From contig NC_016633.1 in the NCBI RefSeq assembly GCF_000236685.1, positions 3,291,815 to 3,355,814 on the forward strand: DNA of 64,000 bases, written 5' to 3'. The position numbers and the translations under genes were made by a program. Positions 57,357-61,508 of this stretch are shown piece by piece. The notes beneath the pieces were generated by a model. The model was not told the DNA's origin and ran no database searches. It saw only the letters and a program-made list of their open reading frames with translations. The stretch is from Sphaerochaeta pleomorpha str. Grapes (GTDB lineage: Bacteria > Spirochaetota > Spirochaetia > Sphaerochaetales > Sphaerochaetaceae). Positions within the stretch are counted from its first letter, which is position 1; the number at the start of each line of letters is the position of its first letter.

Positions 57357-58292
57357 CTAGCGGTATTCCCGGCCTTCAATCTCATCAATGTATTCACTTG
57401 CGCAATGTGCGGCAATGGCTCCATCGCTTGCTGCGGTGATCAACTGTCGGAAAACAGTATCGCGGACATCACCCGCTGCATACAGGCCCTTCTCTTTGGT
57501 TTCCATTTTTTCGTTCGTGATAACATAGCCGCTCTTATCAAGCAGTTTGGCATCGAGCAGTGCTGTCTGGGGAAGCATCCCGACAAAAATAAACACGGCA
57601 TCGAAATCCCTGTGGTATTCTTCCCCTGTGACGAGGTTCTTCAGGATAACACCGGTTACGCGATTTCCATCCCCCTCGATCTTGGTAAGGGTTTGTTGCA
57701 TCACCGTTTCAATATGTCCGTTCCTGTTCACTTGGTCGACTAGGTTGTCCTGGGCTCTGAAGCGGTCCTTGCGGTGTACGATTACCACGTCGTCAGAAAG
57801 TTTGGAAAGGTAGAGGGCATCGGTCAAAGCGGTATCACCACCACCTACGACAAGGATTTTCTTTTTCTTGAAGAAAGGACCGTCACAGGTACCACAATAG
57901 GAAACCCCTTTGCCCTGGTAGGTTTCTTCACCCTCGACCCCAAGGTGACGGTGTTTTGCCCCGGTTGCAATGATTACTGCCTTGGCCTGGTAAGTTTCCC
58001 CGCTTGTAGTAGCAATAAACACATCCTTCTCTTTTTTTAAGGAAGTGACAGAACCATAGACAATTTTGGCCCCGAATTGTTCTGCCTGGGACTGGAATTT
58101 TATGCCAAGGTCATATCCACTTACCGGTTTGTCAAATCCTGGATAGTTCTCTACCATGTCGATATACATTGTTTGTCCGCCGGGGGCCATTTCTTCAATG
58201 AGAGTAACGCTTCTCCCTGCGCGGGCTCCATATTGGGCAGCGGCCATTCCTGCTACACCTGAACCTATGATAAGTATATCCTGTTCAACCAT
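57357..58292 (-). CDS. trxB: Thioredoxin reductase
   Basis: A 311-residue flavoprotein: FAD motif IIGSGVAGMAAA, redox CGTC, NADPH motif VVGGGDTALTDALYLS and a C-terminal GLYAAGDVRD. The ATG at 58292 has GGAGG upstream and overlaps the tsaB stop by 8 bases. It reduces thioredoxin with NADPH. Confidence 0.95.
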   Translation of the reverse strand: MVEQDILIIGSGVAGMAAAQYGARAGRSVTLIEEMAPGGQTMYIDMVENYPGFDKPVSGYDLGIKFQSQAEQFGAKIVYGSVTSLKKEKDVFIATTSGETYQAKAVIIATGAKHRHLGVEGEETYQGKGVSYCGTCDGPFFKKKKILVVGGGDTALTDALYLSKLSDDVVIVHRKDRFRAQDNLVDQVNRNGHIETVMQQTLTKIEGDGNRVTGVILKNLVTGEEYHRDFDAVFIFVGMLPQTALLDAKLLDKSGYVITNEKMETKEKGLYAAGDVRDTVFRQLITAASDGAIAAHCASEYIDEIEGREYR

Positions 58293-58998
58293 TGATTTCC
58301 TCCAGTTTGCGAATTTTTTCAAGTAATGCCAATTCCGCATCGCTTTTTCTGACATAGGCAGGCCCCGTTCCGATATCATCAGGACCATTATCCCTGAATT
58401 TCTTGAATCCAAGCCTGATTAAGGTCAATGCTAGGTTTGCAGATGGATTGCCATCGACAAAAAGTGCCCCGTCATAGTTTTTCAGCTGATGGGAAAAAGC
58501 GACTGCATCGGGACCGGTTACCAACGTACTAGTATGGCCTTCAAGCAGTTTTGCAATTTCATCACCATCGCAATCGAGGTCAGGGGTCTGCCGTTTTCCA
58601 TCAGCGTAAATTGCCGTGTAAAAACGTTTTTTCCTGGCGTCAATCGCAGGAACGACCGCACCATTGAAGAAGCTTACGCACTCATACAGGGCATCAAGCG
58701 TAGATATCGAAACCAAAGGAATCGATGCAGCCAGTGCAACGCCCTTGCAGGCACTCATGCCTATTCTCAGTCCGGTAAAAGACCCGGGACCGTTGGTACA
58801 GACCAATAAATCCAAGTCTTTCAGGATAAGGCCATTGTGCTTACACAGCTCAAGCATCTGGGGGACCAGCGATTCGGAATGTTGAGCTCCGTTTGCGATA
58901 GTCCTGGTCTCAAACCGTTCAAACAGGTTGTCTTCTGTTCCCCTGGCGAGACAAAGGGCCATGGCTTCAGTCGATGTGTCGACACTTAGGATGTTCAT
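58285..58998 (-). CDS. tsaB: tRNA threonylcarbamoyladenosine biosynthesis protein TsaB
   Basis: A 237-residue ASKHA-fold partner of TsaD: ILSVDTSTEAMALCLARG, QHSESLVPQMLEL, CTNGPGSFTGLRIGMSACKGVALA, and VPAIDARKKRFYTAIY. It helps make t6A37 on ANN-decoding tRNAs. It is translationally coupled to tsaE (ATGA) and to trxB. Confidence 0.94.
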   Translation of the reverse strand: MNILSVDTSTEAMALCLARGTEDNLFERFETRTIANGAQHSESLVPQMLELCKHNGLILKDLDLLVCTNGPGSFTGLRIGMSACKGVALAASIPLVSISTLDALYECVSFFNGAVVPAIDARKKRFYTAIYADGKRQTPDLDCDGDEIAKLLEGHTSTLVTGPDAVAFSHQLKNYDGALFVDGNPSANLALTLIRLGFKKFRDNGPDDIGTGPAYVRKSDAELALLEKIRKLEEING

Positions 58999-59414
58999 AG
59001 TTCGATTCCCTCAATGGTAATGACGCGTTCTTGGTTAGGCATAATGGAAATATCGACATAAATAGTCGAATCGGGAAGCATTTCCTGAATTTTTTCACTC
59101 CATTCGATCAAGGTTATACCTTTTCCGTACAACATTTCCTCACCGCCGATCATTTCGAATTCATCAGTCCCGCTGAGGCGATAGAGGTCCATATGGAAGA
59201 GTTTGTATTTCCCTTCATATTCCTGGATCAAGGTAAAGGTGGGGCTGACGATGGCTTCGTTGATTTCCAGTGCCTGGGCAATCCCTTTGGCAAGCACCGT
59301 TTTACCTGCTCCCAGACTTCCGCGTAAAGAAATCACTGAGCCGCCCTTACAAACAGAGCCAAGGCGGCGTCCGAGCTCAATGGTTTCCTGGGCGCTTTTG
59401 CTAATTATTTGCAT
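58995..59414 (-). CDS. tsaE: tRNA threonylcarbamoyladenosine biosynthesis ATPase TsaE
   Basis: A 139-residue P-loop protein: Walker A LRGSLGAGKTVLAKG, SPTFTLIQEYEGKYKLFHMDLYRL, and the acidic FEMIGGEEMLYGKGITLIEWSEKI. It is the ATPase of the TsaBDE complex for t6A. The TPR protein gene lies 6 bases upstream. Confidence 0.95.
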   Translation of the reverse strand: MQIISKSAQETIELGRRLGSVCKGGSVISLRGSLGAGKTVLAKGIAQALEINEAIVSPTFTLIQEYEGKYKLFHMDLYRLSGTDEFEMIGGEEMLYGKGITLIEWSEKIQEMLPDSTIYVDISIMPNQERVITIEGIEL

Positions 59415-59420
59415 GGTATG

Positions 59421-60758
59421 CTATTCCTCTTCATGGTCATGGTTGCAGGAACACCCTTCTTCCCCATGCTGATGGCCACACGAGCAGGCATGTCCTTCTT
59501 CCTGGGCCTCGAAAGAAACCTCGAGGTCGTCGGTATCTTCCTTTCCCTGGATATGGAAAGGTTTTTCTTTCCTTGCTCTCTGTAATTCCTGTTCCTTGAG
59601 CATGGCAGTATCTACGAATTCCTGTACTATCGGGGATGCAAGGGCCTCTCCTGTAGCATTCTGATAGTCTTCCATCAGTTTGATGATAACAGGATCGTTT
59701 CCGTCAATATTGCGGGCTAGTTCCAGAAATTCCCTGGCTTCGTCAAATTCTTCATCTTTGAGATGGAGATAGGCGAGATTGGAAAGCAGGGTGAGGTTCT
59801 CTGCATCCAGATCGACCGCTGTGTTGAGATAGTTCTTTGCAAGCTCTGTTTTTCCACTCTCCAAGGAGCAGATGGCAAGTTCGTTATAAATGTCACTGCT
59901 GCTCTCGCCGAGGGCGAGGCATTTGAGGAAAGCTTCTTCGGCTTGGGAAAATTGCTCAAGTCTTCTGAAAGCCCAGCCCTTGAGAAACCAGCCGTTCCAT
60001 ACCTTTGGGTTTTCCGTCAGGTAGGGTTCCAATAACGTAAGGGCTTTTTCCTCGTTATTCATCTGGATCTCGTCGTAGGCCTGCATCAGCGCCTTGTCAT
60101 TGTTCAGTTTGTTGTCGATATCTGAGACGATGCGCTGGACATGGGTCTTTTTGTCACTATCCTGGGCAAGGTCGAGATAGCGGTCGAGATAGTTCTTTGC
60201 AATTTCGATATTACCCTGGTACATATGAAAGAATCCGAGTTCGTTGAGGAGATTCTCATCGTCACCGAGTTTCTCGAGTCCTTCGTTAAGGGTGTTCAAA
60301 GCTTTTTGCTGGTAGAAATCGTATTGGGTCCCTTTCTTCTCATCCAGGGCCGCACGCTTGCTATATAAGGTCGCAAGGTTGATAAACGTTGCACTCTGAG
60401 GATACAGGTGGTTTACCGTCAAAAAGAGTTCCTCTGCAAAATCAAGGTCATTGTTCTTTTCCTTGGCAATCGCTGCAAGGTTGAGTTCGTTCACTGCATC
60501 GCTTTGGGAAGCCAGGACAAAATCCCTGTAATAGGCAAAATGGGGGTGTTCTGGGTTGTAGGCAATGATCTTGAGCATTCCCGCTATGATCATCTCTATG
60601 CTGATTTCTGTAGTTGCATCTATTTCTTTCTTTCCATCGGGAAGTTGCACCGGTATTTCGATGGAACTGTCGACATGGAAGCCGTTGATGTCCCTCTCCA
60701 TAGAGGAGGGTAGGTGAATAAAGAGTAGATCTTTGAATTTCTGGTTCTGTTCTGTCAT
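59421..60758 (-). CDS. TPR-repeat protein with Cys/His-rich C-terminal tail
   Basis: A 445-residue cytoplasmic protein with about seven tetratricopeptide repeats (for example NLATLYSKRAALDEKKG, ELGFFHMYQGNIEIAKNYLDRYL, AFRRLEQFSQAEEAFLKCLALG). It ends with a tail rich in Cys, His and Glu (GHACSCGHQHGEEGCSCNHDH), reminiscent of metal-binding or metallochaperone tails. TPR proteins make protein-protein contacts. The tail might bind zinc, nickel or copper; this is inferred from composition only. It is co-directional with tsaE, six bases away. Confidence 0.85.
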   Translation of the reverse strand: MTEQNQKFKDLLFIHLPSSMERDINGFHVDSSIEIPVQLPDGKKEIDATTEISIEMIIAGMLKIIAYNPEHPHFAYYRDFVLASQSDAVNELNLAAIAKEKNNDLDFAEELFLTVNHLYPQSATFINLATLYSKRAALDEKKGTQYDFYQQKALNTLNEGLEKLGDDENLLNELGFFHMYQGNIEIAKNYLDRYLDLAQDSDKKTHVQRIVSDIDNKLNNDKALMQAYDEIQMNNEEKALTLLEPYLTENPKVWNGWFLKGWAFRRLEQFSQAEEAFLKCLALGESSSDIYNELAICSLESGKTELAKNYLNTAVDLDAENLTLLSNLAYLHLKDEEFDEAREFLELARNIDGNDPVIIKLMEDYQNATGEALASPIVQEFVDTAMLKEQELQRARKEKPFHIQGKEDTDDLEVSFEAQEEGHACSCGHQHGEEGCSCNHDHEEE

Positions 60759-61110: not shown

Positions 61111-61470
61111 TTAGAGTGCTGGAGAATCACCAAGGAGTGAATCCAGATCAATATCCTCTTCCATGGCCAGTGCATCACCAGAGGAAAAGCCTTCGGCGGC
61201 TTCCAACTCAAGTGCGACATCGTCCATCAAAGGAATATCATCCAACCCGTCGATAGTCGAGAGGTTATCCATTGCCTTGGCAATACTTTCCTCGATGAGC
61301 TTGTTGCTCGTCGTGAAACTTTCTGCATATTCTTCGAGTTCGGCGTTATGGGTGTTGACCAAGTCGAACTTTTCTTGGAGTTCTGCTTTCTCCTTGCGGA
61401 GCATTGCAATCAAACCTGCGGCTTTCTTGGTACGCAGTTCCAACAATTGAACGGTATCGACAACTGACAT
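61111..61470 (-). CDS. Coiled-coil protein, ZapB-like position (119 aa)
   Basis: A 119-residue acidic protein. The N-terminal half is a leucine/lysine-rich heptad coil (LLELRTKKAAGLIAMLRKEKAELQEKFDLVNTHNAELEEYAESF); the C-terminal half is very acidic. The ATG at 61470 follows AAGGAG with 5-base spacing. It lies between rplT and 6S RNA, where other bacteria have zapA or similar division genes, so a cell-division role is suggested by position and coil only. Confidence 0.65.
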   Translation of the reverse strand: MSVVDTVQLLELRTKKAAGLIAMLRKEKAELQEKFDLVNTHNAELEEYAESFTTSNKLIEESIAKAMDNLSTIDGLDDIPLMDDVALELEAAEGFSSGDALAMEEDIDLDSLLGDSPAL

Positions 61471-61508
61471 AGCCACTCCTTCCTAAAGTCTGGACAAATA
61501 CCTCCCGG

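Follow-up and report, generated by a model that had tools for sequence, protein, structure and literature searches.

A Cys/His-rich, putatively metal-binding tail on a TPR protein recurs and varies among Sphaerochaeta-family spirochaetes

The C-terminal tail of Escherichia coli SlyD is unstructured, has a high content of His, Cys, Asp and Glu and varies among SlyDs, and Helicobacter pylori SlyD binds Ni or Zn (PMC7055735). The same source covers the His-rich tail of UreE and the His-rich regions of some HypB proteins, low-complexity metal-binding segments that are missing in some orthologues (PMC7055735). Metal-binding C-termini on chaperone-like proteins are described for mycobacterial GroEL1 (a His-rich C-terminus, PMC10170517) and PacL1 (a C-terminal metal-binding motif, PMC9374683).

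The window, a stretch of 64,000 nucleotides from Sphaerochaeta pleomorpha str. Grapes, encodes a tetratricopeptide-repeat (TPR) protein that ends in such a segment. The features considered are:

57357..58292, minus strand: trxB-like flavoprotein (Pfam Pyr_redox_2, E 2e-50; trxB a putative name)
58285..58998, minus strand: tsaB (Pfam PF00814, E 1.3e-22; tsaB rather than tsaD by length and place)
58995..59414, minus strand: tsaE, the next gene (Pfam PF02367, E 3.8e-39)
59421..60758, minus strand: TPR protein, 445 aa (open reading frame with ATG start, Pfam TPR matches)
59424..59507, minus strand: Cys/His tail, residues 418-445, AQEEGHACSCGHQHGEEGCSCNHDHEEE (4 Cys, 5 His)
59424..59564, minus strand: disordered C-terminal segment, residues 399-445 (pLDDT <50; beyond the Pfam matches)
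59652..60599, minus strand: TPR solenoid, residues 54-369 (AlphaFold2 helices and Pfam TPR)
61111..61476, minus strand: ZapB-like coiled coil, upstream neighbour (Pfam ZapB E 0.0012, below cut-off)

Composition and structural model together give the protein a disordered, Cys/His-rich C-terminal tail of the SlyD type. The two tails share their C-terminal position, their richness in Cys, His, Asp and Glu and their variability among orthologues (SlyD as in PMC7055735), but the TPR protein is a solenoid without an FKBP domain (no FKBP family among its Pfam matches, E up to 1), many of its relatives carry tandem units, and no NiFe-hydrogenase occurs in the family. Unlike UreE and HypB, which are nickel-enzyme maturation proteins, it has no Pfam match of that sort, and the G3E GTPase domain of HypB/CobW (PF02492) gave no Pfam match in it. 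GroEL1 and PacL1, likened to it by description, differ in scaffold and are reported to involve copper and zinc, respectively. By analogy, the TPR tail may work like a SlyD tail, though the protein is not itself a SlyD. Such tails were undescribed in the titles and abstract beginnings among the literature matches listed.

The TPR assignment of the sequence-only reading was borne out. Searched to E 1, where HMMER filters drop most matches above 0.1, the open reading frame had 18 Pfam matches, of which all but a weak one to FRB were to TPR or related helical repeats, and several TPR families scored above their own cut-offs. The AlphaFold2 model (28 aligned sequences) placed helices over residues 54-369, with 10-residue blocks at pLDDT 92-98 and one block at 85, while residues 399-445 were disordered (pLDDT <50). 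TPR superhelices led the PDB fold search, with query-length TM-scores of 0.24-0.46 among the 50 matches listed. These are generic helical-repeat folds; the top match, a consensus TPR solved with zinc, was not taken as evidence. Neither a Pfam family covering the tail nor a metal-binding family was found in the protein at E up to 1. The SEC-C motif (the SecA tail), CxC-x8-C[HC], gives various proteins a short zinc site of Cys and His at the C-terminus; SEC-C had no Pfam match in the TPR protein (E up to 1) and its spacing is absent from the tail, and no curated Pfam metallothionein model matched the protein (E up to 1).

The last 28 residues hold four Cys (425, 427, 436, 438), five His (423, 429, 431, 440, 442) and eight Asp/Glu, whereas two Cys (280, 297) and nine His are spread over the remainder of the protein. 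A Cys/His tail with several acidic residues had been noticed from the letters alone and stands, with four Cys and not the five then counted. When the protein was shuffled 20,000 times, nine Cys plus His never arose within any 28-residue window, while four Cys alone were matched in 223 of the shuffles. Among 778 open reading frames from 864 kb (24%) of the same genome (greedily called at >=100 aa from the window plus 40 stretches, some of them probably not genes), the tail ranked first by Cys plus His in the last 30 residues. When any 30-residue window was allowed, three entries shared third place, this protein among them, after a ferredoxin-like segment and a short open reading frame.

Other C-termini of this genome were also rich in these residues. 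The second in the C-terminal ranking belongs to a DUF6930/DUF7309 protein (L379:10958-12067) with a His-rich tail and one Cys (DHGHVHDHNCEHHPSH), and rank 7 among the ranked C-termini listed is an Mrp/NBP35-like ATPase (L371:15261-16460) with a Cys/His run at its end (VCHEHQHHDECGE) and a dinitrogenase-cofactor-type domain. The HxHxHxH pattern had 18 matches in the genome, not far above the 8 in the control; four of the 18 come from one CA repeat, and two fall within His-rich protein segments.

A TPR orthologue was found in 133 of 139 Sphaerochaeta-family genomes (E<=1e-20), at one place each except in G095, where it is split across two contigs (L149, L150) and the second piece ends with a Cys/His-containing tail. 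At E<=1e-10 the gene was detected in 52 of 60 relatives, including 19 of 24 genomes from other families of the class, each of these sampled families being represented by one genome. Tails were read in 153 loci, 133 family genomes (G095 as two pieces) and 19 others, and 148 were counted, with L020 and L027 (no tail seen), the two G095 pieces and L035 (outside the family, cut by a contig end) set aside. C-termini past the equivalent of residue 365 were classed as Cys/His (at least two Cys and at least three His), otherwise as His (at least four His), otherwise as tail-less; these cut-offs are our own choice and some rows lie near the boundaries.

Sought in orthologues, as the sequence-only reading had proposed, the tail was found in part of them: among 130 family members, 62 were of the Cys/His class, 16 of the His class and 52 tail-less, and neither type of tail was present in any of the 18 counted orthologues from outside the family. 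Within the window's genus (23 rows), the Cys/His tail was confined to the window and the His tail to L002, the sister of the window's protein, which carries a His run and not the Cys version; the other 21 were tail-less. The number and spacing of potential ligands differed widely, the Cys/His class spanning 2 to 14 Cys. The richest C-termini, counted from about residue 350, held 14 Cys and 34 His (L151) and 13 Cys and 33 His (L086) in tandem units. Cys/His tails also alternated with His runs, as in L053 with seven His vs L083 with CCHNHEH repeats. Bullifex porci (G060) is among the tailed members.

On the best tree of the tail-free core, the Cys/His state changed 13 times, with at least 10 changes forced by starred branches; the tree is a quick one with tail columns removed, carries a long-branch warning and does not place the outgroup on one side of a branch, and such counts cannot separate gain from loss. 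In 24 close pairs, tail codons with Cys or His in either member showed 109 synonymous vs 42 amino-acid differences (N/S 0.39), where 3.3 to 8 is expected without selection, and N/S was 0.67 for the other tail codons and 0.26 for the core; these values are indicative only, as the pairs were hand-picked and overlap in membership, and alignment programs tend to put Cys opposite Cys. By this measure, the Cys/His codons look constrained in the tails of relatives, to which the comparison applies, the window's tail being without a close relative that bears the Cys version. Tandem tail copies of identical protein differed by 0 to 5 bases, all synonymous (the units were chosen for protein identity), so that some expansions look recent and others older.

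A comparable segment occurs in YgfK. The CxCGHxH pattern was present in the window's genome once in the TPR tail and twice in YgfK (L157:2383-5676, that is C1:3428282-3431575; TIGR03315 1407 bits, cut-off 835), and nowhere else. This YgfK, whose neighbours are ssnA, ygeY and a xanthine-dehydrogenase-like gene, carries an acidic, Cys/His-rich insert between its FAD and ferredoxin parts. Family-wide, the pattern was present in 95 of 139 genomes, and its reverse, by our count, in 21. In 30 loci with matches (L158-L187), 14 lay in YgfK, a set biased by its finding through the motif, five in TPR tails, one in a ZnuA-family protein, seven in open frames where they were taken for chance and three outside any long frame. 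The ZnuA-family binding protein (L160:1111-2283, g11 genome) has a long Cys/His repeat loop with ECCGHDH units.

YgfK was found in 131 of 139 family genomes (E<=1e-150). In the best 30 family loci (L188-L217), taken independently of the motif, its linker had at least three Cys in 22 and none or one in eight, and three further family loci had 5, 2 and 7. Outside the family, 23 of 27 linkers were 14-21 residues long and contained no more than one Cys and one His; the other four, from families f3 and f4, exceeded that length and had 0-3 Cys and 3-6 His, and the TPR orthologues read from f3 (L033) and f4 (L032) had no tail. Richness of tail and linker was weakly correlated for Cys plus His (rho 0.35, p 0.02) and for Cys alone (rho 0.28, p 0.08) in 42 of the 44 genomes with a linker read, relatedness being uncorrected, and no correlation was seen within the window's genus (rho 0.05, n=18).

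At the level of sequence, the TPR tail and the YgfK insert are demonstrably alike in composition and motif, with CxCGHxH units in an acidic context in both; the insert differs in being internal, at the FAD/ferredoxin junction, and more constant across the family. Used as a query, the insert recovered only YgfK in its own genome at E<=10, the TPR tail not being found, and over eight genomes it matched the TPR tail in G162 only (E 0.001 and 1.6). Recent copying of the tail from YgfK seems improbable, as the matched DNA stretches, judged by eye, looked unlike recent copies.

From the recurrence of the tail, the interchange of Cys/His with His-only versions, the codon constraint in relatives and the resemblance to SlyD tails, we infer, with good support, that the tail binds metal. 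More specifically, we give roughly even chances to its being a disordered appendage that holds metal, probably as a zinc buffer, comparable to a SlyD tail but carried by a new scaffold. Within the family, where recurrence is observed, a disordered C-terminus would have repeatedly turned Cys/His-rich, and several transition-metal ions, most likely zinc, would be loosely held through CxC/CC, HxH and acidic residues. The tail would buffer cytosolic metal rather than supply one enzyme. The TPR core would retain its own older partner function, with the tail an optional extra that could be lengthened by unit duplication, exchanged for a His run, or lost.

The window's tail contains two similar units, CSCGHQH and CSCNHDH, with four potential ligands each, as would suit a small structural element, either a knuckle or a dimer contact, formed by the tail wrapping around zinc. 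We consider this unlikely, given the wide variation of ligand number and spacing among relatives in the Cys/His class and the disorder predicted without metal.

A nickel store or chaperone, as in SlyD, HypB or UreE, is likewise improbable. The resemblance to SlyD tails favours it, as does the presence, within the window's genus, of a HypB-sized G3E protein only in G000 and G006, its two Cys/His- or His-tailed genomes, G000 carrying both hypA and hypB. These two genomes are, however, mutually nearest in identity, which probably makes them one event. Across the family, where G3E proteins occur in 44 of 139 genomes, the HypB-sized class (selected among the G3E matches from the length of the frame and the point where the profile match begins) was not associated with tails (10/17 with vs 68/113 without, Fisher p 1.0; median p 0.6 over seven independent pairs, a very small number). 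NiFe-hydrogenase was found in none of the 139 genomes, and urease alpha in just three; the urease matches passed the cut-off with low scores (26.6-29 bits), covered about 50 of the 121 positions in the profile and in two cases lay in a frame that crosses a stop. A nickel role, the sequence-only reading having likened the tail to those of Ni or Zn carriers, is therefore unlikely as a general one. In the window's genome, hypB, a large Fe-S flavoprotein and hypA lie in a row (L371:5605-9321), with no NiFe-hydrogenase or urease match there.

Zinc is our guess for the likeliest cargo of the putative metal-binding tail, favoured by elimination and also by the presence of zinc-type transport genes, which do not themselves discriminate. 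The window's genome has a ZnuA-family protein as well as a ZntA-like heavy-metal P-type ATPase (L353:1279-3021, cut by the locus end), the latter having a His-rich linker that follows the HMA domain; ZnuA was discarded as a zinc indicator, being present in 109 of 139 genomes.

A role of the Cys pairs in thiol chemistry, whether redox reactions or the carriage of persulfide or selenium, in partnership with trxB and YgfK, seems distinctly improbable. The operon does include a thioredoxin-reductase-like gene, in the same position in most family loci with room for it, and YgfK, by name a putative selenate reductase subunit, has the SsnA and YgeY genes beside it. Against this, the His tails of 16 family members contain fewer than two Cys, which leaves no Cys pair possible there, and metal chemistry fits the alternation of Cys/His tails with His runs better than thiol chemistry does.

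We give equally little credence to neutral growth of low-complexity sequence at a C-terminus that tolerates it. Tandem units, frequent changes of tail state and the DNA identity of some tandem copies would agree with it, but synonymous change dominates at the Cys/His codons, other copies (in units chosen for identical protein) are up to 5 synonymous bases apart, and YgfK and other proteins are similar in composition.

The gene order at the locus is ZapB-like, TPR, tsaE, tsaB, trxB-like, and the TPR stop codon lies 6 bases before the tsaE start; the adjacency to tsaE/tsaB noted earlier is upheld. The ZapB-like gene (61111-61476) lies between rplT and the TPR gene, as it does in many family loci. 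Within the family, tsaE was next to the TPR gene in 61 of 62 members with a Cys/His tail, 16 of 16 with a His tail and 50 of 52 without; the exceptions were L034 (40 bases left in the stretch), L121 (265 left) and L153 (no match, 2,413 left). Outside the family it was next in three of 18 counted loci (L032, L033, L036), all tail-less, and in L049 it lay 1.1 kb away. Because tsaE is adjacent with or without a tail, the operon is uninformative about the tail, and within the family the tail is independent of the tsa genes. Delivery of metal to TsaD for t6A synthesis, as proposed by the sequence-only reading, draws on the near-constant tsaE downstream in the family (gaps -29 to +59 bases), but with 52 of 130 members tail-less, nearly all of these beside tsaE (the very case that reading had set against itself), and the same arrangement in three tail-less loci of other families, it is not supported and we regard it as very improbable indeed.

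Disordered metal-binding tails are usually treated protein by protein; here, one orthologous gene at a near-fixed place bears varied tails. With at least 10 changes of tail state, 0 to 14 Cys and a sibling segment in YgfK, the family offers a natural series on tail function and on the metal that drives tail growth. Bullifex porci is a named tailed strain, so that study need not depend on uncultured species. Alongside the metal-holding appendage proposed for the TPR protein, the YgfK segment suggests a lineage-wide habit of placing putative metal-binding low-complexity segments on unrelated cytosolic proteins. Tentatively, and as a possibility we lean against, metal buffering in Sphaerochaeta-type spirochaetes may be spread over unrelated proteins with Cys/His segments (the TPR protein, YgfK, the DUF6930/DUF7309 protein and the Mrp/NBP35-like ATPase), and the number of units, expandable in the TPR protein and YgfK, would tune metal capacity to habitat.
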